The notes below the pieces were generated by a model. That model did not search any database and was not told the origin of the DNA. It saw only the letters and a program-made list of their open reading frames with translations. Positions 8,380 through 50,545 of a stretch of DNA of 64,000 nt are shown here, in pieces. The stretch is taken from positions 1 through 64,000 of the forward strand of contig JAFUVM010000066.1 in the NCBI GenBank assembly GCA_017483665.1, read 5' to 3'. Position numbers and translations under genes: made by a program. How positions within the stretch are numbered: the stretch's first letter is position 1; the number at the start of each line of letters is the position of its first letter. This DNA is from Bacteroidaceae bacterium (GTDB lineage: Bacteria > Bacteroidota > Bacteroidia > Bacteroidales > Bacteroidaceae).

Positions 8380-9264
8380 TCACTCCAGGTTGTAGCCGTA
8401 CGCTTTCATGGCGCGATCGCTCTGACGCCAGTCCTTGTCCACCTTGACGAACACTTCCAGGTAGATGCTCTTGCCGAAGAATTTCTCCAGACTCTTGCGG
8501 GCTTCCGTCGAGACACGCTTCAAGGCAACGCCTCCGTGACCGATGATGATGCCCTTCTGCGACTCGCGCTCCACGAAGATGACTGCGCCGATGCGGATGT
8601 TCTTGTCCGTCTCTTTGAACTGTTCCACAACGACCTCCACGCTGTAGGGTATCTCCTTATCGTAGTAGAGGAGTATCTTCTCGCGGATAATCTCGGTGAC
8701 GAAGAAGCGGGCGGGCTTGTCGGTCCACTGGTCTTTGTCGAAGTAGGCGGGCGATTCGGGCAGGAGTTCCTGGATGCGCCGCAGCACGTTGTCCACGTTG
8801 AAGCGGTGCAAAGCGCTGATAGGCACAATCTCCGCCTCGGGCAGCGCCTCGTGCCACAGCTCCACTTTCTCCGTCAGAGCCTTCTGGTCGCTGAGGTCTA
8901 TCTTGTTGATGAGCACAAGGACCGGGACGGTCATGCGCTTCACCTTGTCCAGAAAGTCGCTGTTCTTGTCGGGAGTCTCCACCATGTCGGTGACGTAGAG
9001 CAGCACGTCGGCATCCTGCAGGGCACTTTCGCTGAACTGCAACATCTGTTCCTGCAGCTTGTAGTTGGGCTTGAGTACGCCCGGCGTGTCGCTGAAGCAT
9101 ATCTGCATGTCGGGCGTGTTGAGGATGCCCATGATGCGGTGTCGCGTGGTCTGCGCCTTGAAGGTGGCAATGGAGATGCGCTCCCCTACGAGGAGATTCA
9201 TGAGGGTGGACTTCCCGACATTCGGGTTGCCTACGATATTGACAAAGCCGGACTTGAACATCAA
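8380..9264 (-). CDS. era: GTPase Era
   Basis: This 294-residue GTPase assists 16S rRNA maturation and 30S assembly, acting at the ribosome and inner membrane. The G1 loop GNPNVGKS is at 12-19, G3 DTPG at 59-62 and G4 NKID at 120-123. The C-terminal third is a KH RNA-binding domain with the IGHGG turn. The length is typical for Era. A second ATG directly follows the first, so the start may be one codon later. It is followed by purN on the same strand and separated from fabH by a repeat-filled gap of about 100 bp. Confidence 0.97.
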   Translation of the reverse strand: MMFKSGFVNIVGNPNVGKSTLMNLLVGERISIATFKAQTTRHRIMGILNTPDMQICFSDTPGVLKPNYKLQEQMLQFSESALQDADVLLYVTDMVETPDKNSDFLDKVKRMTVPVLVLINKIDLSDQKALTEKVELWHEALPEAEIVPISALHRFNVDNVLRRIQELLPESPAYFDKDQWTDKPARFFVTEIIREKILLYYDKEIPYSVEVVVEQFKETDKNIRIGAVIFVERESQKGIIIGHGGVALKRVSTEARKSLEKFFGKSIYLEVFVKVDKDWRQSDRAMKAYGYNLE

Positions 9265-9366
9265 TTCATAATTAATAATTCATAATTCACAATTATCCTT
9301 CTCACTTGGCTGTGTGGCACCAACATTTGTTGCGCTTTCCTAATTATGAATTATGAATTGAGAATT
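9262..9366. repeat. Inverted pair of AT-rich 7-bp tandem repeats (ATAATTC type) between era and fabH
   Basis: The left arm (about 9264-9294) repeats ATAATTC-like words. The right arm (about 9341-9366) repeats the reverse complement (GAATTAT). About 45 bp of unrelated sequence lies between. The arms could pair into a long imperfect hairpin in the mRNA. The right arm runs up to the fabH stop codon. Confidence 0.7.
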
Positions 9367-12534: not shown

Positions 12535-12820
12535 GCAGATTCTCCCTTCCGGCCCCGACAACACGGCACGGTCTTCGTCACAACACGGCGTGCTCTTCCT
12601 CCCGACGCGGCGTGCCGTGATGCCCATAAGAGCACTGCGCTTCCGAAATAAGCGCGAGGCGCTTCCAAAATAAGCGCGAGGCGCTTCCGAAATAAGCGCG
12701 AGGCGCTTCCGAAATAAGCACCGGGCGCTTCCTGAAGAAGGGGGGTGCGCCTCCGCTTCAAGCAAAAGCGAGAGTGACATGCCGACGGCGACGCTTCCCG
12801 GGCAAAACCCGCAGGATAAA
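12535..12820. repeat. Long degenerate 22-bp tandem array (AATAAGCGCGAGGCGCTT core)
   Basis: About thirteen 22-bp units are in strict phase. The four central units (12645-12732) are nearly identical, with core AATAAGCGCGAGGCGCTT. Flanking units diverge to GACAACACGGC and CACAACACGGCGTGC forms but keep the spacing. There is no convincing ORF. It fills the 462-bp gap between the histidine kinase (divergent) and the clostripain-like gene. The core matches the arrays at 16945-17032 and 39872-40091. Confidence 0.8.
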
Positions 12821-12890: not shown

Positions 12891-12922
12891 AACTCTCAAC
12901 TATCAACACTCAACTCTCAACT
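12891..12922. repeat. CTCAACT-type 7-bp repeats just upstream of a -7 box
   Basis: Four imperfect copies of CTCAACT/ATCAACA words lie 7 bp before the TACCTTTG box of the clostripain-like gene, where the -33 region should be. A change in copy number would change promoter geometry. Confidence 0.65.
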
Positions 12923-21304: not shown

Positions 21305-23800
21305 ATGGAAGTAAAAGAGGGAACAAAAATGGGAGAAAAAGAGGAAGTCAAAAAGCAATACGGATATTTCGACGATGCCCATAGGGAGTTCGTCATCACC
21401 GAGCCGGCTACGCCCTTCCCCTGGATAAACTATCTGGGCAACGAGGATTTCTTTTCCCTCATCAGCAATACCGCAGGTGGCTATTCTTTCTACAAGGATG
21501 CCAAGTTCCGTCGCATCACCCGCTACCGCTACAACGGTGTACCTATGGACAACGGTGGCCGCTACTTTTATATAAGGGAGCAAGGAGTAAAGAGCAAAGA
21601 GCAAATCTGGTCTCCCGGATGGAAGCCCTGCAAGACACAGCTCGACAAGTACGAGTGTCGTCACGGCATGGGCTACACCCGCATCATGGGTGCCAAGAAC
21701 GGACTGGAGGCTGAAACGCTCTTCTTCGTGCCCCTGCATACGTGGGCAGAAGTACAGAAAGTGACGCTCCGCAACACATCGGCAGAAGTGAAGCACATAC
21801 AGCTCTACTCCTTCGTGGAGTGGTGCCTGTGGAACGCCCAGACTGACATGGAGAACTTCCAGCGCAACCTCAGCACCGGCGAAGTCGAAGTCGAAGATGG
21901 CGGACGCATCATCTATCACAAGACAGAGTATCGCGAGCGCCGCAACCACTATGCCTTCTATGCAGTCAATGCACCTGTCAACGGGTTCGACAGCGACCGC
22001 GAGAGCTTCATCGGCATGTATAATGGCTTCGACGCTCCCCAGGCGGTCCTCGACGGAACAAGCCGCAACAGTGTGGCTCACGGTTGGAGCCCCATCTCCT
22101 CCCATCGCCTCGACATCGAATTGCAGCCAGGCGAGAGCCGTAGCCTTGTCTTTACCCTCGGCTATGTGGAGAATCCCGAGGAAGAGAAATGGGAGTCCCT
22201 CTCTATAATAAATAAGGAACGTGCGCACGCGCTTGTTAACCGCTTTGCCACCACCGAGGCTGTGGATGAGGCTTTCGACTGTCTGCAGAGGATGTGGGAC
22301 GGCTTGCTGGACAAATATACCATCCAGAGCAGCGACGAGCGCCTGAATCGCATGGTCAACATCTGGAACCAATACCAATGCATGATAACCTTCTGCTTCT
22401 CCCGTTCCGCCAGCTTCTTCGAGTCCGGCATAGGCAGGGGCATGGGCTTCCGCGACAGCAACCAGGACCTCCTCGGCTTTGTCCACCAGGTTCCGCAGCG
22501 TGCCCGCCAGCGCATCATCGACATCGCCTCCACGCAATTCCCCGACGGCGGTTGCTACCATCAGTACCAACCTCTTACCAAACACGGCAACAACGACATC
22601 GGTGGCGGCTTCAACGACGACCCCATGTGGCTCATCTATGGCACGGTTGCCTATATCAAGGAGACAGGTGACTTCTCCATCCTTGACGAGGCTGTCCCCT
22701 TCGATAATATGGAAGGCACGGAGGTCAGCCTCATGGAGCACCTCCGCGTCTCGTTCAATCATGTTGTGAACAATCTCGGCCCTCACGGACTGCCCTTCAT
22801 CGGTCGCGCCGACTGGAACGACTGCCTCAACCTCAACTGCTTCTCGATGGACCCCAATGAGAGTTTTCAAACCACCGAGAACAAGACAGAAGACACAAAG
22901 GCAGAGTCGCTCATGATAGCCGGCCTCTTCGTCTATTGCGGACAAATGTACGTCGACCTCTGCAAGCAACTCGTCAACTCGTCAACTCGTCAACTTCCAA
23001 CTCAATGGAATACCGAAGCCGCCCGCGCCCAGCATTGCATCGACGACATGAAGTCTGCTGTCAAAGCATACGGCTGGGATGGAGAATGGTATCTCAGAGC
23101 CTACGACTTCTTTGGTGAGAAGATCGGCTCGCACGAGAACGAAGAAGGCAAGATATTCATTGAGAGCCAAGGATGGTGCTCGATGGCAGAGATAGGCAAA
23201 GAAAAGCAAATGCCCGAGCGCGCCCTCGATTCCGTCAAACAGTTGCTCGACAGCGAGCACGGCATGGTGCTCAACTATCCGGCCTATACCCGTTACCACA
23301 TAGAGCTTGGCGAACAGTCCTCCTATCCGATGGGCTACAAGGAGAACGGCGGCATTTTCTGTCATAACAATCCCTGGATTATCATTGGCGAGACCCTTTG
23401 CGGTCGCGGCAACGATGCCTGGGAACACTACACGAAGATAGCACCCGCCTGGATCCGTGACCAGAAACTGCATCGCACCGAACCCTATGTCTATGCTCAG
23501 TGCATAGCTGGCAAGGAGTCCGTGCTTCCCGGCGAGGCTAAGAACTCATGGTTGACAGGAACTGCCGCCTGGAACTGGATAACCATCACGCAGCACATCC
23601 TCGGCATCCAGCCCACATGGGACGGTCTCATCATCAATCCCTGCATTCCCTCTTCACTGAAGGAATATACCGTTCTGCGCAAGTTCCGCGATGCAGAGTA
23701 CACCATCACCATTCTCAATCCCGATGGCAAGCAGCAGCCCGACACACCCACCTTCATCCCCTATCGGGCAGAAAAGCGACAAATCACGATAAAACTCTAA
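21305..23800 (+). CDS. GH94 cellobiose/cellodextrin phosphorylase
   Basis: This 831-residue cytoplasmic enzyme has no signal peptide. It reversibly cleaves a beta-1,4 glucosidic bond with phosphate, giving glucose 1-phosphate. The opening [14 protein letters not shown], then [18 protein letters not shown] and GRYFYIRE, are hallmarks of GH94. The DWNDCLN motif near residues 503-509 contains the general acid Asp. The start at 21305 leaves the TAACTTTG box upstream. Two short repeats are embedded in frame: residues about 91-101 (AGAGCAA words) and 555-564 (CAACTCGT words). It is the first gene of the beta-glucan locus and spares ATP by phosphorolysis of imported disaccharides. Exact chain-length preference cannot be read here. 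Confidence 0.92.
22967..22996. repeat. In-frame CAACTCGT 8-bp repeats inside GH94
   Basis: Three perfect CAACTCGT copies and a partial fourth encode [10 protein letters not shown]. The same word occurs between korA and the tRNA (39081-39120). Confidence 0.7.
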
Positions 23801-32992: not shown

Positions 32993-35497
32993 ATGAAGTA
33001 TCTATTCGCAACCATCATAGGGGCTGCCATCGCACTGCCCGCGAGTTCGCAGTGCATCCCCCGTGACGAAAAGGTCGAAGCACAAGTCGAAGCATTGCTC
33101 TCCAAGATGACACTCCGCGACAAGGTGGGGCAGATGTGCGAACTGGCTATCGACAAGGTGGCGCAGAGTTCGAGCGATGGCAACGTGAAGGACAACAACT
33201 CCTCGCGCACGCTGGCCAGCGGTATGCTGTCGGCAGAAGCCGCCGATGACGTGTTCGGGAAGTACCGCGTAGGCTCCATCCTGAACGTGCCTTTCGGTGT
33301 GGCGCAGACGCCAGAGAAGTGGGCAAACATCATCTGCACCCTCAACGAGGCTTCCATGGAGCAGTGCGGTGTGCCGCAGATATATGGTGTCGACCAGATT
33401 CACGGTGCCAGCTACACCTGGGGCGCGACGTTCTTCCCGCAGGAAGTGGGACAAGGCGCCAGCTTCAATGCTGCCATCCCCCGCCGCATCGGTGAGATAA
33501 CGGCTTACGAGAGCCGTGCCTGCCTCATTCCCTGGGTGTATTCGCCCGTCATGGATGTGGCACGTTCTCCGCTCTGGCCCCGCATGTGGGAGAGCTTCGG
33601 CGAGGACGTGCTGCTGAACGGCATCATGGCTTCCGAGCTGACACGTGGTCTTCAGGGCAATGACCCCAACCATGTGGGGATGCAGAACGTGGCAGCTTGT
33701 CTGAAGCACTATCTGGCTTATGGTGCTGCCGTCAGCGGCAAGGACCGCACACCATCCAGCGTGACCTATCGCGAGATGATGGAGAAGTACTTCCAGCCTT
33801 TCCGCATGTGCTGCGAGGCTGGTGCGCTGAGCCTGATGGTCAACTCCGCCAACAACAACGGCGTGCCCTTCCATGCCAACCGCCGCCTGCTGACCGAATG
33901 GCTCAAAGAAGGACTTGACTGGGACGGCATGATAGTGACAGACTGGGCCGACATCGACAACATCTGGCGCCGCGACCATGTGGCTGCCAACAAGAAAGAT
34001 GCCATTGCCCTCGCCATCAATGCAGGCATCGACATGACGATGGATCCCTATTCGACCGACTTCTGCGACCTGCTCGTAGAGCTGGTGAACGAGGGCCGTG
34101 TGCCCATGTCGCGCATCGACGATGCCGTGCGCAGCATCCTGCGCCTCAAGATTCGTGTCGGCCTGATGGACAAGTCAACGTGGCAGGTCTCCTCTGACTC
34201 CACCTCTAAAGGAAGAAAAAAGAAAACGGCCAATGGCAAAAGTTCAATGGTCAATGGTCAACGGTCAATGGTCAATGGTCAACGGTCAATGGTCAATGGT
34301 CAACGGTCAATGGTCAATGAAAGATACTCCGACTTCGGCAGCGACAAGTTCGCCCTCGAAGCAACGAAAATGGCCGAGGAGTGCATGGTATTACTGAAGA
34401 ACGAACAGCAGATTCTGCCCTTGAAGCCAGACACGAAGCTCTTCGTCTGCGGCCCAAATGCCAACAGCTTCCGCACCATGAACGGCGGCTGGAGCTACAC
34501 TTGGCAAGGCGACAGGACCGATGCTATCGCCAGGGAAATAGGCAAGTACCGCACTTTCCTCGGCGCTCTGGAACAGAAGTTCGGCAAGGAAAACGTCAGC
34601 TTCTGTGAGATGGTCCGCTATGATGGGCGTAACTTCAACCTCGACCACAAGGCGGAGGACGGCAGCGTCAAGGAGAAGGTGGCAGCAGCCGACGTCATCC
34701 TGGCCTTTGTCGGCGAGAACTCTTATACCGAAACCCCAGGCAACATCGACGACCTCAACCTCTCTCCCAACCAGCAGGAGATGGTGAAGTCCTTGGCTCA
34801 GTACGGCAAACCCATCGTGCTGGTGCTCAACGAAGGCCGTCCCCGCATCGTCAACGAGATAGAGCCTCTGGCTAAGGCTGTCGTCCATACCTTCCTGCCT
34901 GGCAATTACGGCGGCGATGCTCTGGCTAACCTGCTCTCCGGCGAAGCCAACTTCTCCGGACGCATGCCTTACACCTATCCCAAGTACCACGGCTCGTTCA
35001 TCACCTACGACTGCAAGCCTTGCGAGTACGTCGAGACGATGGCCGGAGCCTACAACTACGATGCCAACACCACCGTGCAATGGACCTTCGGCTCCGGCAT
35101 CTCCTATTCCGAAGTGAAGTACAGCAATCTGCGCGTCGAGACGCCCGCAGCTACAGGCAAGGCTTCGCCCAGCAAAGGCTTCTCGCCCAAGACAGCTGCC
35201 GGCACGACTTTCGATGGCAACATCCGCTTCACGGTAGAAGTGACCAATCTGTCCGACCGCAAGGTCAAGGAACCAGTGCTGCTCTTCGTCTCCGACCTTG
35301 TTGCCTCGCTCACACCTGATGTTAAGCGCCTGCGTGCCTTCACCAAAGTCGAGTTGGCGCCCCACGAAACAAAGACCGTCACGATTACTGTCCGCCCATC
35401 CGACCTCGCCTTTGTGAACGAGGACATGCAGTGGACGCTTGAGCCTGGTCAGTTCCGAGCTACCGTCGGCAACCAACGGACAGAGTTTACGCTCTAA
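32993..35497 (+). CDS. GH3 beta-glucosidase with an in-frame repeat insertion
   Basis: This 834-residue periplasmic or surface exo-enzyme has a signal peptide ending near PASSQC. The GH3 N-terminal barrel contains KHYLAYG and the nucleophile D317 in GMIVTDWADI. The C-terminal GH3 sandwich and a fibronectin-III-like domain (from about 730) follow. Between the two GH3 domains, residues about 417-443 are translated 21-bp repeats (MVNGQRS three times), preceded by a Lys-rich linker GRKKKTANGK. The repeats fall in an interdomain linker, so the fold should tolerate them. As the last gene of the beta-glucan locus it would release glucose from oligosaccharides. Confidence 0.93.
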   Translation: MKYLFATIIGAAIALPASSQCIPRDEKVEAQVEALLSKMTLRDKVGQMCELAIDKVAQSSSDGNVKDNNSSRTLASGMLSAEAADDVFGKYRVGSILNVPFGVAQTPEKWANIICTLNEASMEQCGVPQIYGVDQIHGASYTWGATFFPQEVGQGASFNAAIPRRIGEITAYESRACLIPWVYSPVMDVARSPLWPRMWESFGEDVLLNGIMASELTRGLQGNDPNHVGMQNVAACLKHYLAYGAAVSGKDRTPSSVTYREMMEKYFQPFRMCCEAGALSLMVNSANNNGVPFHANRRLLTEWLKEGLDWDGMIVTDWADIDNIWRRDHVAANKKDAIALAINAGIDMTMDPYSTDFCDLLVELVNEGRVPMSRIDDAVRSILRLKIRVGLMDKSTWQVSSDSTSKGRKKKTANGKSSMVNGQRSMVNGQRSMVNGQRSMVNERYSDFGSDKFALEATKMAEECMVLLKNEQQILPLKPDTKLFVCGPNANSFRTMNGGWSYTWQGDRTDAIAREIGKYRTFLGALEQKFGKENVSFCEMVRYDGRNFNLDHKAEDGSVKEKVAAADVILAFVGENSYTETPGNIDDLNLSPNQQEMVKSLAQYGKPIVLVLNEGRPRIVNEIEPLAKAVVHTFLPGNYGGDALANLLSGEANFSGRMPYTYPKYHGSFITYDCKPCEYVETMAGAYNYDANTTVQWTFGSGISYSEVKYSNLRVETPAATGKASPSKGFSPKTAAGTTFDGNIRFTVEVTNLSDRKVKEPVLLFVSDLVASLTPDVKRLRAFTKVELAPHETKTVTITVRPSDLAFVNEDMQWTLEPGQFRATVGNQRTEFTL
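34241..34319. repeat. TCAATGG/TCAACGG 7-bp repeats expanded in frame inside GH3
   Basis: About eleven 7-bp copies are arranged as a 21-bp higher-order unit (TCAATGG, TCAATGG, TCAACGG) repeated three times, so the reading frame is kept. The same word, in the other orientation, occurs inside korB (35808-35836). Confidence 0.85.
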
Positions 35498-35523
35498 GGC
35501 TGCTCACCGCATAGCAAGACAAA

Positions 35524-35573
35524 AAAGGCACCATCGTGACTTCACAGTCCTCCGATGGTGCCTTTGCTTTTTT
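35524..35573. terminator. Bidirectional terminator between GH3 and korB
   Basis: The stem AAAGGCACCATCG (35524-35536) pairs with CGATGGTGCCTTT (35553-35565). It is followed by TGCTTTTTT on the plus strand and by CC-TTTTTTG on the minus strand. It serves two converging genes. Confidence 0.8.
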
Positions 35574-35589
35574 ACTATGGTGCCCGTCT

Positions 35590-36585
35590 CTACTTCACCT
35601 CCCAGATGTCGTTCGTCTCGAGGAGCTCGGCGAAGTTGTGGTACTTCTTCTTCGTCTTGATGTCCTCGATTTGCTGCCAGACGCAATCGTCATAGGTGGG
35701 AGCCTCCACGTCGCGAATCACACCGAGCGCCACAGGCCACTCCAGCTCGGCAAGCTTCAGCTGCAAGGTGTTGTCCTCCTGATGTGCGTCGTGAACCAGA
35801 ACGTCGTCCATTGACCATTGACCATTGACCATTGACACGGGTTTGATGTTGAAGCCGTCCTGCACGATGCCGTACTCATTGTTCTCTCCAAAGAGCATCT
35901 TCTCGCCATGACGGAGATAGATGGCATTCTTGGCGCGGCCTTCCTTCGAGTAGACAGCGTCGTGCGTGCCGTTGTTGAAGATGACACAGTTCTGCAGAAT
36001 CTCGCAGACGCTGGCACCCTTATGATTGTAGGCTGCCTTGAGCACCTCGATGGTGCCCGGAGCATCGGTGGCAACGGCGCGGGCGAAGAAATGTCCGCGT
36101 GCGCCGAAGCAGAGCTCAGCAGGGCGGAAGGGGTCCTCCACCGTTCCGTAGGGCGACGACTTGCTGACGAAGCCGCGCGGACTGGTGGGGCTGTACTGTC
36201 CCTTCGTGAGTCCGTAGATACGGTTGTTGAGCAGAATCATGTTCAGATTGATGTTGCGGCGGTTGGCATGTATGAAGTGGTTGCCACCGATGGCGAGTCC
36301 GTCGCCGTCGCCGCTGACCTGCCATACGGTCAGGTCGGGGTTTGCCACCTTGCAACCCGTTGCGATGGCTGCGGCGCGACCGTGAATGGTGTTCATGCCA
36401 TAGGTTGCCATGTAGTGCGGCAGACGGCTGGAACAACCGATACCGCTGATGACGGCAGTCTCACTTGGCGCCACACCTATCTCTGCCATTGCTTTGTGGA
36501 GACTGGCGAGGAAGAAATGGTCGCCACACCCGGGACACCAACGCGGCTGTCCCTTCTTGAAATCAGAAGCACTATAATTACACAT
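35590..36585 (-). CDS. korB: 2-oxoacid:ferredoxin oxidoreductase, beta subunit (KorB type)
   Basis: This 331-residue thiamine-diphosphate-binding subunit contains the cluster-binding-like WCPGCGDH (residues about 16-23), the GDGDGLAIGGNH ThDP/Mg motif and NNRIYGLTKGQYSPTS. With the alpha subunit it oxidises 2-oxoglutarate (or a related 2-oxoacid) to the acyl-CoA and reduces ferredoxin. Near residues 250-260 a short repeat of TCAATGG words is translated as SMVNGQWSM, in frame. It normally follows the alpha gene directly; here a 643-bp gap with a GxxExxY element separates them. Substrate assignment to 2-oxoglutarate is by family resemblance only. Confidence 0.9.
   Translation of the reverse strand: MCNYSASDFKKGQPRWCPGCGDHFFLASLHKAMAEIGVAPSETAVISGIGCSSRLPHYMATYGMNTIHGRAAAIATGCKVANPDLTVWQVSGDGDGLAIGGNHFIHANRRNINLNMILLNNRIYGLTKGQYSPTSPRGFVSKSSPYGTVEDPFRPAELCFGARGHFFARAVATDAPGTIEVLKAAYNHKGASVCEILQNCVIFNNGTHDAVYSKEGRAKNAIYLRHGEKMLFGENNEYGIVQDGFNIKPVSMVNGQWSMDDVLVHDAHQEDNTLQLKLAELEWPVALGVIRDVEAPTYDDCVWQQIEDIKTKKKYHNFAELLETNDIWEVK
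35808..35836. repeat. CCATTGA 7-bp repeats inside korB
   Basis: Four consecutive CCATTGA copies encode the SMVNGQWSM stretch. The reverse complement is the TCAATGG word of the GH3 insertion. Confidence 0.75.
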
Positions 36586-36606
36586 AATACTTATAATTTT
36601 TCTTTT

Positions 36607-37222
36607 TTAACAACGAATTAGGACGAATGTCACGAATTGAACTAATTATTTTTCATTACTACGAATTCTGACTACAGGGAAACGCTTACAGTTTTATCTA
36701 CTTTCCTTGAACAACGAATTAAGACGTATGCCACGTATTGAACGATTCTATATTTTTTCCTATTACACAAATTACCCTACAGGGAAACGTTCGTATTCGA
36801 GGGATGAATCTCCGAAATTGATGAGAAGAGCAAGTTTATAGCCTGCCACTTTTGCATAGTTGATTGCTTGTGAACGATGGACATCGTCAAGGTCTCTGAC
36901 AGCTTTCAGTTCGACTATGATTTTATCGTAGCAAATGAAGTCAGGAACAAACGTGGCATTGAGAATGATGTCTTTGTATGAAGCACGAATCTCCACCTCA
37001 CGCTTGAATGGAATACTTTGTTCCTTAAACTCCAAAGCCAAGGCCTCCTGGTATACCTTCTCGGTAAATCCAGGCCCCATGATGCTATGAACCTTCATGG
37101 CCGCACCAATAATCTCATAACTCTCCTTCGGATATATCATTTACCTTACCAGAATCTCAATTCGTATAATTCGTGTAATTCGTTTTAATTCGTTGTTTCG
37201 AAATAATCCGTAATCCGTTGTT
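36607..37222. mobile_element. Putative GxxExxY element flanked by inverted CGAATT-type repeats
   Basis: The left side has two related blocks, AACAACGAATTAGGACGAAT (from 36609) and AACAACGAATTAAGACGTAT (from 36710). The right side (37156-37222) has ATTCGTATAATTCGTGTAAT and ends TAATTCGTTGTTTCG, the inverted complement of the left blocks (AACAACGAATTA). The GxxExxY gene is enclosed. The whole unit lies between korA and korB, which belong to one operon. There is no transposase of a known type, and target-site duplications are not obvious by eye. Confidence 0.55.
36772..37140 (-). CDS. GxxExxY family protein (PD-(D/E)XK-like)
   Basis: This 122-residue protein is named for its motif, seen here as GFTEKVY (G24, E27, Y30). 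A PD-(D/E)XK-type signature follows: D67 in VPDFICYD, then E77 and K79 in IVELKAV, with Q91 in RSQAINYAK. All putative catalytic residues are present, so a nuclease-like activity is possible. The family's biological role is not known to me. It is encoded in the same direction as the korA/korB genes it separates and is bracketed by inverted repeats. Confidence 0.88.
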   Translation of the reverse strand: MIYPKESYEIIGAAMKVHSIMGPGFTEKVYQEALALEFKEQSIPFKREVEIRASYKDIILNATFVPDFICYDKIIVELKAVRDLDDVHRSQAINYAKVAGYKLALLINFGDSSLEYERFPVG

Positions 37223-37228
37223 TATATA

Positions 37229-39070
37229 TTATTTTTCCTTGTTTAATATCTCCGTGAATGCTGCGACGAGTTCGGCGACCTTGAAGGGTTGACCTTTTAC
37301 TTCGTTGTACTGCTGGGGGACGAAGCCGTCGACTTTCATGCGGAGCCAGCCGGCGAGCTGGCCCATGTTCTGTTCGGCAACGACGACTTTGGGGTAGCGG
37401 CGGAGCACTTCTGTGGTGTTCGCGGGCAGGGGGTTGATGTAGCGGAAGTGGGCAAGGGCAACCTTGTGACCCTGACTGCGCAGCTCGTCCATGGCGGCGT
37501 GCAGGTGGCCGTAGGTGCCACCGAAGCCGACGATGAGGAGTTCGGCATCGTCCTTGTCGCCCAGCACTTCGAGGTCGGGCACGGGGATGCCGTCAATCTT
37601 GGCCTTGCGCTTGCGCGTCATGAGGTCGTGGTTCTCGGGGTTCGTGCTGATGGCGCCCGTCTTGTCGTCCTTCTCCAAGCCGCCCAGGATGTGCTCGAAG
37701 CCTTCGCGACCGGGCACAGCCCAGTAGCGGACGCCCTGCTCGTTGCGCATGTAGGGAGTCCACGAGCCGCGCAGTTCTTCGGGACCGTACGGGGGATTGA
37801 TGGCAGGATAGTTCTTCAGGTCGGGCAGACGGAAGGCTCCCGAGCCGTTGGCAACGAAGGCGTCGGTCATGAGGATGACGGGCGTCATGTGCTCCAGCGC
37901 CATCTTTGCGGCGGCATACGCCATCTCGAAGCAGTCCGTGGGACTGGCAGCAGCCACGACGGGCATGGGGCTCTCGCCGTTGCGCCCGAAGAGTGCCTGC
38001 AGGAGGTCGGTCTGTTCGCTCTTGGTGGGCAGGCCAGTGGCAGGTCCGCCGCGTTGCACGTCGAGGACGACGAGCGGCAGTTCCATGATGACGGCCAGGT
38101 TCATGGCCTCGCTCTTGAGGCAGATGCCGGGGCCGGAGGTGCTGGTGACGGCCAGAGCTCCTGCGAAGGAAGCGCCGACTGCCGACGCGCAACCGGCTAT
38201 CTCGTCCTCGCATTGTACGGTGACGACACCGAGGCTCTTGTGCTTGGACAGTTCGTGGAGGACGTCCGTGGCGGGCGTGATGGGATAGGAGCCGAGGTAG
38301 AGCTTCAGTCCGGCCTTCTCTGCTGCGGCGATGAAGCCGTAGGCTGTGGCCTTGTTGCCCGTGATGTCCATGTAGCGGCCGGGCACCTTGTGCTTCGTCT
38401 CGATGCGGTAGACGTTGGCTACGCTGGAGTGTGTGTTGTGTCCGTAGTCGTAGCCTGCCTGTATGACCTTGATGTTGGCTTCGGCCACTTCGGGTTTCTT
38501 GGCGAACTTCTCCCTGAGGAAGTTGAAGGCGACGTCAAGGTCGCGGTCGAAGAGCCAGCAGACGAGTCCGAGCGCAAACATGTTGCGGCACTTGCTCACA
38601 CTCTTGGCATCCATACCACTATCCTTGAGACAATCCTTCACCATCGTCGTGAGGGGACAGGCGATGACGCGGTCGGGGTCGATGCCCATCTCGCCGAGGT
38701 AGTCGTCGGTCTTGAACTGCGCTTTCTCCAGGTCTTTGGGTCCGAAGCTGTCGGTGTCGATGATGATGGCGGCATCGGGCTTGGCGTAGCGGTACTGCGT
38801 CTTGAGGGCTGCGGCATTCATCGCCACGAGGACGTCGCAGAGGTCGCCGGGTGTGTAGACCTGTCCGGCGCCGATGTGCACCTGGAAGCCGCTGACGCCT
38901 GTGAGCGAGCCTTGCGGGGCTCGGATGTCGGCGGGATAGTCGGGGAACGTACTGATGCTGTTGCCAACGGTGGCACTGACTGTAGAAAAAATGTTTCCGG
39001 CGAGTTGCATGCCGTCGCCGGAATCACCTGAGAACCTAACTACGACAGATTCCTTTTCTTTTATTTCCAT
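37229..39070 (-). CDS. korA: 2-oxoacid:ferredoxin oxidoreductase, fused gamma-alpha subunit (KorA type)
   Basis: The start MEIKEKESVVVRF at 39070 was chosen over the longer frame because the extra residues are repeat-derived. This gives 613 residues. Residues about 5-180 are the gamma domain (VRFSGDSGDGMQLAGNIF), followed by the alpha pyrimidine-binding domain (LYLGSYPITPATDVLHELSK) and the C-terminal transketolase-like domain II (AELLIVGFGGTYGH, VVVAEQNMGQLAGW). It pairs with the beta subunit encoded downstream beyond the GxxExxY element. It acts in the cytoplasm, linking 2-oxoacids with ferredoxin. A tRNA-Arg gene lies 90 bp upstream on the same strand. Confidence 0.92.
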   Translation of the reverse strand: MEIKEKESVVVRFSGDSGDGMQLAGNIFSTVSATVGNSISTFPDYPADIRAPQGSLTGVSGFQVHIGAGQVYTPGDLCDVLVAMNAAALKTQYRYAKPDAAIIIDTDSFGPKDLEKAQFKTDDYLGEMGIDPDRVIACPLTTMVKDCLKDSGMDAKSVSKCRNMFALGLVCWLFDRDLDVAFNFLREKFAKKPEVAEANIKVIQAGYDYGHNTHSSVANVYRIETKHKVPGRYMDITGNKATAYGFIAAAEKAGLKLYLGSYPITPATDVLHELSKHKSLGVVTVQCEDEIAGCASAVGASFAGALAVTSTSGPGICLKSEAMNLAVIMELPLVVLDVQRGGPATGLPTKSEQTDLLQALFGRNGESPMPVVAAASPTDCFEMAYAAAKMALEHMTPVILMTDAFVANGSGAFRLPDLKNYPAINPPYGPEELRGSWTPYMRNEQGVRYWAVPGREGFEHILGGLEKDDKTGAISTNPENHDLMTRKRKAKIDGIPVPDLEVLGDKDDAELLIVGFGGTYGHLHAAMDELRSQGHKVALAHFRYINPLPANTTEVLRRYPKVVVAEQNMGQLAGWLRMKVDGFVPQQYNEVKGQPFKVAELVAAFTEILNKEK

Positions 39071-39080
39071 ATCTTTTTGT

Positions 39081-39153
39081 AGTTGACAGGTAAACAAGTT
39101 GACGAGTTGTTACCCTTAAACTCTTAACTTTGAACTATGAACTATGAACTTTC
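39081..39153. repeat. AGTTCAT/CAACTCGT-type short repeats between tRNA-Arg and korA
   Basis: The run contains AACTATG twice, AACTTTC, AACTCTT and GTTGACGAGTTG words. It fills the whole gap upstream of korA, where its promoter should be. Confidence 0.6.
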
Positions 39154-39160
39154 GAAGTAG

Positions 39161-39232
39161 TACTCCCGCCGGGAATCGAACCCGGATTGACGGTTTAGGA
39201 AACCGTAGTTCTATCCATTGAACTACAGGAGC
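39161..39232 (-). tRNA. tRNA-Arg (anticodon CCT)
   Basis: The 72-nt cloverleaf on the minus strand has acceptor GCTCCTG pairing with CGGGAGT. The anticodon arm ACGGT-TTCCTAA-ACCGT has anticodon CCT. The T-arm CCGGG-TTCGATT-CCCGG and discriminator A complete it. CCA is not encoded. It reads AGG codons. Confidence 0.93.
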
Positions 39233-39259
39233 TCCTGCTGCTTTGCAGCGAATCGTGTG

Positions 39260-39267
39260 CAAAGGTA
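39260..39267 (-). promoter_or_regulatory. -7 box (TACCTTTG) for tRNA-Arg
   Basis: This is a TAnnTTTG match 28 bp upstream of the tRNA 5' end. Confidence 0.55.
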
Positions 39268-39518
39268 CGACAAAAAGTGAAAAGAGGAAAGTAAAAGCGG
39301 AAAATTATTTGCTTTCCTGTCTGTTTGTGTCTGTTTACCCTTGTTTTATGGCAGGAATGCTATCTTAAACGGTCTATCCTGTCGCATACCTTTAATACAT
39401 GGTCCAATCCGCACAACATCTTTCTTCCTGTCTTCGCAGCAAGCAGGGAGGTCTCTGTTGAGTTGTTCGAAAAGAAGTGTTCAAAATCGCAGTATTTCAT
39501 TAAATTCTTCTCAAATTA

Positions 39519-43773: not shown

Positions 43774-43854
43774 ACCACGAATTTCACGAATTGCACGAAT
43801 TGCCCTTGGCAATCAGCGGCGTAGCCTATTCGTGTAATTCGAGTAATTCGTGGT
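43774..43854. repeat. 81-bp inverted-repeat element (ACCACGAATT...AATTCGTGGT) in the SusC-SusD gap
   Basis: The left arm reads ACCACGAATTTCACGAATTG and continues with CACGAATTG. The right arm reads ATTCGTGTAATTCGAGTAAT and ends TTCGTGGT. The outer 10 bp are perfect inverted repeats. The centre is about 30 bp with no gene. The words match the flanks of the GxxExxY element at 36607-37222. Confidence 0.7.
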
Positions 43855-50387: not shown

Positions 50388-50545
50388 TTTTCAGTGGCTC
50401 GGAAATTTATTTCAGTGGCTTGGAAATATATTTTAGTGGTTCTGAAATATATTTCCAAGCCTTTGAAATTGTTTTATGCTGCGGCGCGGGGAAATTTCTG
50501 CCATGTCGTACAGCATTTGTCAACATGTCGTGCAGAACTTGTGCT
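50388..50545. repeat. AT-rich 22-bp tandem arrays upstream of the LytTR gene
   Basis: Three 22-bp units with TCAGTGGCTCGGAAATTTAT, TCAGTGGCTTGGAAATATAT and TAGTGGTTCTGAAATATAT starts run from about 50391. A fourth, diverged unit (CAAGCCTTTGAAATTG) follows. About 35 bp later (50502 on) come two further 22-bp units, CATGTCGTACAG and CATGTCGTGCAG. The rest of 50546-51082 holds one promoter box and no credible gene. Confidence 0.75.

Follow-up and report, generated by a model that had tools for sequence, protein, structure and literature searches.

The RAYT proteins that accompany repetitive extragenic palindromes (REP) are HUH tyrosine nucleases, gene-free versions of the intervening sequences (IVSs) of 23S rRNA exist in Salmonella, and cyanobacteria carry heptamers known as STRR. 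GxxExxY and DUF559 genes are common, and to our knowledge neither family has been given an established function. In Coxiella burnetii, the inverted repeats of the IVS form a 28-bp stem, and the portion of the report consulted terms the IVS a selfish element of unclear origin and gives its S23 protein no settled function (PMC4990558). The same portion raises a role of the IVS open reading frame (ORF) in mobility, citing Ralph and McClelland 1993. In the sections available of PMC4679880, the TAACTGA heptamers that recur in Beggiatoaceae, cyanobacteria and Bacteroidetes are presented as direct repeats, and a role in translation is proposed for them. An incomplete survey of open-licence papers yielded none that linked GxxExxY genes to inverted arms made of such words. 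Here we describe a unit at about 36609-37222 of a 64,000-nucleotide stretch of Bacteroidaceae DNA (the window) that has roughly an even chance of being a single-gene mobile element without a transposase, in which the predicted nuclease would recognise the words of the arms and spread both itself and gene-free copies.

The sole protein of the unit is encoded by a GxxExxY gene of 122 aa (36772-37140, minus strand), a predicted PD-(D/E)XK nuclease (TIGR04256, PF13366). Its neighbours, both on the minus strand, are an alpha-subunit gene upstream (37229-39097, likely start ATG at 39070) and a gene for the beta subunit of a 2-oxoacid:ferredoxin oxidoreductase downstream (35590-36585), which we take to be korA and korB, respectively. 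Just upstream of the GxxExxY start, the right arm (37159-37197, plus strand) consists of four AATTCGT words at spacings of 9, 9 and 10 and ends in TAATTCGTTGTT (37186-37197). It is followed by the outer right end (37204-37222, plus strand) with the variant word TAATCCGTAATCCGTTGTT, which is also found in the korA-korB units of G013 and G027. The inner left arm (36710-36754, minus strand; AACAACGAATTA...) is inverted relative to the right arm, and was 76% complementary to 37153-37197 over 45 nt. An inverted repeat of 48 nt, 36600-36647 versus 37159-37206, was 77% complementary. The original prediction that degenerate inverted AATTCGT/ACGAATT repeats enclose the gene was borne out by these two pairs and by a word count above chance. 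Both of the unit ends that it had named are present, AACAACGAATTA at 36609-36620 and TAATTCGTTGTT on the right, but its end coordinate of 37222 belongs to a variant, TAATCCGTTGTT, because this variant forms the outermost right end (37211-37222); TAATTCGTTGTT itself ends at 37197.

On the left side, the end unit is found twice (36606-36661 and 36707-36762), each time followed by the gene's own last codons, CTACAGGGAAACG (36672-36684 and 36777-36789). From its sequence, the outer left arm (36606-36684, minus strand) looks like a second, tandem copy of the arm that includes the final 13 nt of the gene, and the korA-korB unit of G077 has a similar arrangement. The window contains 13 AATTCGT words, 8 of them in the GxxExxY unit and 4 in a second unit (43774-43854, no strand assigned), which belongs to the same word family, has no gene and reads ACCACGAATTTCACGAATTGCACGAATT, a spacer of about 25 nt and then TATTCGTGTAATTCGAGTAATTCGTGGT. 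In 100 shuffles of the window, the mean was 5.4 words and 13 was never reached. We also computed a flank inverted-repeat score by comparing the 150 bp upstream of a gene with the reverse complement of the 150 bp downstream. This score was 23.0 at the window locus versus a maximum of 12.5 among 39 control genes. As originally noted, the gene content of the unit included no conventional transposase, the PD-(D/E)XK family match being its only protein. An Rfam search of 33900-39400 gave tRNA only, and the unit lies outside 23S rRNA, between korA and korB.

The assignment of the protein was confirmed. It matched TIGR04256 with 137.8 bits (curated cut-off, 35) and PF13366 (PDDEXK_3) with 130.9 bits (cut-off, 22), both over the whole length. 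Residues D67, E77, K79 and Q91 were invariant in all 22 aligned sequences and the D..ExK core was intact, in line with the earlier description of a 122-residue GxxExxY protein with intact PD-(D/E)XK residues. The predicted structure had a pLDDT of 97.1, and its nearest solved fold was that of SSO0001, presumably a Cas4. The next fold neighbours were alkaline and lambda exonucleases and MGME1. A search with PADLOC models gave no convincing defence match to the window protein, the best being DruK (E 0.03). A defence or phage family was rejected, as both this match and that to the phrog_945 endonuclease (E 0.004) were weak. Among plasmids, distant relatives were found in 8 records only. The dN/dS ratio of the gene was 0.02-0.07 in the 7 pairs with usable dS; judged from these rates, GxxExxY is under strong purifying selection.

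The korA-korB junction was compared in a genus sample of 61 genomes. korB was found in 59 of them, in G010 only as a distant paralogue, and there were 59 korA-korB loci in 58 genomes, 56 of which were measurable. A junction was scored as empty when the RWCPGCG codons of korB lay at most 80 nt from the korA stop, and this was so in 32/56 cases. The GxxExxY unit was present at 13/56 junctions, in 12 genomes; a further one in G072, cut by a contig end, stands outside the 13. In G024 the junction held an S23 four-helix-bundle gene between TTAAGAGTTAAG-type arms (1/56). A DUF559 gene was found in three cases (3/56), beside CCTCCCCC-type repeats in G002 (flank score, 16.5) and G067 and as a broken copy in G084. 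Gene-free word arrays were recognised by eye in G083, G007, G074 and G011 (4/56), the insert of G012 reads like a DUF559 remnant, and G022 and G021 hold other inserts. The same junction is occupied, empty or differently occupied among relatives. By eye, G+C hairpins like those of the DUF559 units were also seen inside the N-terminal coding region of korB in G022 (L107), G033 (L092) and G012 (L088).

On the korB tree, G005 with the GxxExxY unit is the sister of G008, with an empty junction (branch support, 94), and the junctions also differed between G024 and G012 (support, 98) and between G015 and G084 (support, 91). The carrier label required at least 10 changes, and well-supported branches force 3 of these. 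Resolution of the tree is poor, and the carriers showed no clear clustering on it (41/500 shuffles gave a value as low). The comparison with empty sites suggested by the original prediction thus yielded 32/56 junctions without an insert, including that of the sister of a carrier. A pattern in which all close relatives carry the gene at this site was contradicted by these 32 junctions; the gene does occupy the same site in 13 of the 56, yet for the window copy replacement is indicated, as described below. The claim that the unit was inserted between korA and korB and may be mobile is, as far as sequence comparison goes, supported by the empty and differently filled sites and by the recurrent arms.

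Inverted arms around GxxExxY genes recur across phyla. Loci were excluded from the scoring when they lacked 150 bp on both sides or had N in these flanks (GxxExxY genus/order, 4/34; S23 genus, 6/31; GxxExxY wide, 4/80; S23 wide, 4/30). In the genus and order, 26 of the 30 full-flank GxxExxY loci (of 34) exceeded the 99th percentile of the 39 control genes, while mismatched arm pairs passed the threshold in 25% (GxxExxY) and 19% (S23) of cases. The wide set consisted of the best 80 of 572 confirmed GxxExxY loci in named genomes and included Bacteroidota, Cyanobacteria, Acidobacteria, Planctomycetota, Chloroflexota, Verrucomicrobia-type Opitutaceae and Akkermansia, Proteobacteria and others. Among these best 80 of 572, 54 of the 76 full-flank loci scored above 12.5, versus 5/52 control genes taken from these loci and 13% of the mismatched arm pairs; 22/76 did not exceed 12.5 within 150 bp. 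At locus L203 of Hymenobacter daecheongensis, the gene has a perfect 51-bp inverted pair. The enrichment of repeats around GxxExxY genes elsewhere, a question raised with the original prediction, was thus found both in the genus and order and across phyla (best 80 of 572).

Two other gene families have similar flanks. S23 genes (TIGR02436) were present in 55/61 genus genomes, with up to 17 genes per genome. The control threshold was exceeded by 22 of the 25 full-flank S23 loci of the genus (of 31; L146-L175), and across phyla by 19/26 full-flank loci (of 30) versus 6.6% of mismatched pairs. DUF559 genes were found in 37/61 genus genomes, and 24 of 30 genus loci (L318-L347) scored above 12.5, with inverted G+C-rich hairpin repeats (CCCCTCCC...GGGAGGGG); the mismatched control is weak for this family (45% of mismatched pairs above 12.5) because its word is shared. 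GxxExxY genes (PF13366) occurred in 151/296 phylum genomes.

The spacing of the words was examined against shuffles. GxxExxY flanks had a peak at period 9, with a z of 15.2 in the genus and order and 15.0 in the wide set (best 80 of 572), in which lags 8 and 10 were also raised (z 8.5 and 6.3). S23 flanks had peaks at period 7 (z 14.9 in the genus, 19.0 across phyla) and at period 8 (z 19.1 and 10.4, respectively). Many GxxExxY words match CRCRRAKNN, such as CACAGATTA, CGCAGAGAC and CACGAATTG, and arms off the common word exist as well, for example, ACTCCTT at L006. Three CRCRRAKNN-type words in a row were found 318 times in the 296 phylum genomes, and the reversed pattern was found 8 times.

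Word copies follow the gene. PF13366 was present in 47/52 word-bearing versus 104/244 other phylum genomes (p 5.8e-11, with the gene's own arms counted and kinship ignored) and in 21/22 of those with at least 3 word hits; because a gene's own arms add to these counts, little can be read from genomes with 1 or 2 hits. The word-bearing genomes without PF13366 were G155, G268, G195, G283 and G364, and G268 had 23 period-9 word triplets with no PF13366 match. Within the genus, at least 5 AATTCGT word pairs were found in 16/19 genomes with a close GxxExxY versus 4/42 of the others (p 1.8e-8, own arms counted and kinship ignored). G017, G067 and G070, with only a distant GxxExxY, and G076, with none, had 6-12 word pairs despite the lack of a close GxxExxY, and G074, G075 and G079 had a close one yet 0-4 word pairs. 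No clear difference in word count was found between genus genomes with only a distant GxxExxY and those with none (p 0.07). In a test with independent korB-tree pairs, the association was not significant because supported pairs were lacking; the test was underpowered, with 4 supported-branch pairs, of which a mean of 2.2 agreed and 0 disagreed.

The arms also vary together with the protein. At nonsyntenic sites, arm similarity tracked protein similarity (rho 0.17, reached in 0/500 permutations; 79 elements with detected arms, of 106). In the korA-korB units, both arms change together, and the words drift between ACGAATT, ACGGATT and ACAGATT. We aligned 10 arm pairs by hand, leaving out two degenerate units (that of G005 and the C133 copy of G018) as well as that of G077, which is near-identical to G000. 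The arm match was 0.87 within versus 0.71 between these 10 korA-korB elements (0/20000 permutations).

Many copies of the words have no gene nearby. In the window's own genome, which is 78% complete, the pattern AATTCGTN{1,5}AATTCGT had 157 matches, and the reversed control had 0. The 100 matches listed fell in 27 separate places, and none of these lay less than 15 kb from the genome's 4 GxxExxY genes. A typical gene-free unit consists of ACCACGAATTnnACGAATTnnACGAATT, a spacer, which varied among most of the sites shown, and then the inverse; in some, tandem 44-base units extend the arms. One site of this genome has a 501-bp array that was absent from the near relative G077, and another gene-free site was filled in four genomes (G000, G077, G036 and G013) and vacant in three (G027, G005 and G076). 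At L135 and L136, identical gene-free word units lie within copies of a larger repeat ending in GAGGGTGTGTCA/TGACACACCCTC (at L136; that at L135 is cut by a contig end), which is probably an insertion sequence remnant or a miniature inverted-repeat element (MITE).

The window carries other short repeats. An array of the TCAATGG heptamer, of the S23 type, with 10.9 copies at period 7 (34244-34319), lies in frame within an ORF of 834 aa (32993-35497), which we presume to be glycoside-hydrolase-like, and adds SMVNGQR repeats to its protein. The same heptamer, inverted, is in frame within korB (35808-35836). Further arrays of period 7/8, such as AACTATG and CAACTCGT, resemble S23 flanks and are found at 1633-1660, 9263-9294, 12891-12922, 22967-22995 and 39126-39150. 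A 22-base tandem unit, GCGCTTCCGAAATAAGCGCGAG (12637-12732), has similar units at the C9 and C116 sites of the same genome and in G077, and is another dispersed repeat family. Repeats of the TTGGAAATATATTTCA type are present at 50389-50476; in G000 and G077, this motif is also found at the border of the L143 site.

Next, we considered whether the window unit was inherited with its neighbours. Between G000 and G013, korB had a dN of 0.05 and a dS of 0.54 and korA had a dN of 0.04 and a dS of 0.52. For GxxExxY, dN was 0.18, and dS was saturated and not computable. GxxExxY is therefore far more diverged than korA and korB in this pair, and the two units at one junction apparently have different histories. 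These rates point to replacement rather than plain descent of the window unit. In all 7 other computable pairs (of 15, not independent), GxxExxY dS was lower than that of both neighbours, which may be due in part to codon bias or to the short length of the gene. Multicopy genomes were also searched for near-identical GxxExxY copies at two sites. The 19 regions fetched covered 7/11 copies of G346, 4/6 of G258, 4/5 of G365, 2/9 of G350 and 2/2 of G288, and all except L354 gave a comparable protein; one further region, of G402, was inspected outside this comparison. No near-identical copies were found among these 18 copies of 5 genomes; the most similar same-genome pair was only 70% identical, and hence no recent jump is shown. 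The comparison of filled with empty junctions at the korA-korB, L143 and L144 sites gave neither exact ends nor a target-site duplication, and no base-by-base alignment was obtained between the junctions of relatives with and without an insert.

If the unit is a mobile element, it could work as follows. The GxxExxY nuclease would bind its 9-base words, probably exposed as single strands or hairpins, and would cut at the words or at a target. Host repair would then copy the unit, with or without the gene, into the break at an intergenic site or operon junction, and the gene-free palindromes would be moved in trans. The word-gene association, the fixed period, the covariation of arms and protein and the conserved catalytic residues are the reasons why we infer that the nuclease reads and cuts the words. 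The arms are also predicted to pair in RNA. The insert would thereby loop out of the host operon transcript as a hairpin, an escape alongside mobility that may be why operon junctions tolerate the unit. The main objection to the nuclease as the motor of spread is that S23 genes occupy the same kind of unit with no known nuclease domain; a nuclease is therefore not needed for the architecture.

The pairing of the arms is also the basis of a different explanation, by which the unit is a passenger at the RNA level like the 23S IVS. RNase III would excise it, the protein would have another role, and the unit would owe its spread to rare horizontal transfer and to homologous recombination. The IVS of Coxiella is organised in the same way, its small ORF being enclosed by inverted repeats with heptamers ahead of the S23p start, and it is excised by RNase III (PMC4990558, in the part consulted), and a 631-nt transcript of the window unit is predicted to fold with its outer arms paired (z -2.54, 20 shuffles). 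The genes are mostly co-oriented with co-directional neighbours, in 38/43 cases for GxxExxY in the wide set (best 80 of 572), 14/15 in the genus and order and 18/18 for S23. However, ordinary window genes were co-oriented equally often (15/17), so co-orientation is not diagnostic, and we dropped the orientation bias (38/43 among the best 80 of 572) as proof of action at the RNA level. An RNA passenger would, moreover, leave unexplained the many gene-free copies that follow the gene and the fixed period of each protein family, and we regard it as unlikely. Somewhat less probable still is that the repeats are independent and REP-like and mark intergenic hot spots, and that the small genes arrive there through recombination between repeats and contribute nothing to the spread. 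By eye, several repeat classes crowd the same intergenic sites, and in the window's own genome the gene-free places (27 among the matches listed) far outnumber the 4 genes. Against this stand the period tied to the family (9 for GxxExxY, 7-8 for S23, and, by eye, a G+C hairpin for DUF559), the words that follow the gene across genomes, the covariation of arms and protein and the better score of matched than of mismatched arms.

The low dN/dS (0.02-0.07) indicates a maintained function, and the copies shown adjoin genes. Both would fit a resident regulator or defence nuclease, with the arms as operators and the scattered copies as regulatory or decoy sites selected by the host. However, there was no convincing defence match (DruK, E 0.03), the sites vary between relatives, some of them with tandem expansions, and the same junction takes different genes; this explanation seems to us improbable. 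The words are short and degenerate, as would be expected if the inverted repeats reflected chance or the composition of an A+T-rich spacer, an idea that is refuted by the shuffles, the control genes and the mismatched arm pairs and that is almost certainly wrong.

Returning to a mobile element, the window unit might belong to an unrecognised class without transposases, a generalisation that we put forward tentatively, at somewhat below even chances. In such a class, small genes (GxxExxY, S23 and a DUF559 nuclease) would be held in word arms whose period depends on the protein family (9 for GxxExxY, 7-8 for S23), the encoded protein would recognise the words, move gene-free copies in trans and refill the same junctions, and the 23S IVSs and many heptamer and nonamer repeats would be members or debris. 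Should each gene be the cognate of a word family, a single explanation would cover three unknown protein families as well as large classes of short repeats, and whether the ORF of the 23S IVSs serves mobility becomes testable.

Compared with described systems, the unit shares features with several of them. Like MITEs, it belongs to short nonautonomous inverted-repeat elements with many copies; the unit contained no transposase, and the junctions compared gave no definable target duplication. It resembles TAACTGA and STRR heptamers in its tandem short intergenic words at many places per genome; the part of PMC4679880 consulted reports no inverted arms or cognate gene for the TAACTGA repeats, whereas here words of period 7/8 flank S23 as inverted arms. 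With the 23S IVS of Coxiella burnetii, which carries S23, it has in common one small ORF between terminal inverted repeats and tandem short words beside the start codon, the Coxiella heptamer being GACAGAT (PMC4990558, same portion). It differs in lying in an operon junction instead of 23S rRNA, in encoding a predicted PD-(D/E)XK nuclease instead of S23 and in having period 9 instead of 7. With REP/BIME and RAYT (TnpA-REP), as far as the sources consulted in part describe them, it shares dispersed extragenic palindromes, many gene-free copies and a nuclease gene flanked by inverted repeat copies. However, its protein is of the PD-(D/E)XK and not the HUH (Y1) type, and its arms are tandem 9-base words and not a REP hairpin tagged with GTAG/CGTC. 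Because the HUH enzyme, the defining feature of REP/RAYT, is absent, the unit falls outside that system. It works like REP/RAYT, is built like the intervening sequences of 23S rRNA and belongs to neither.
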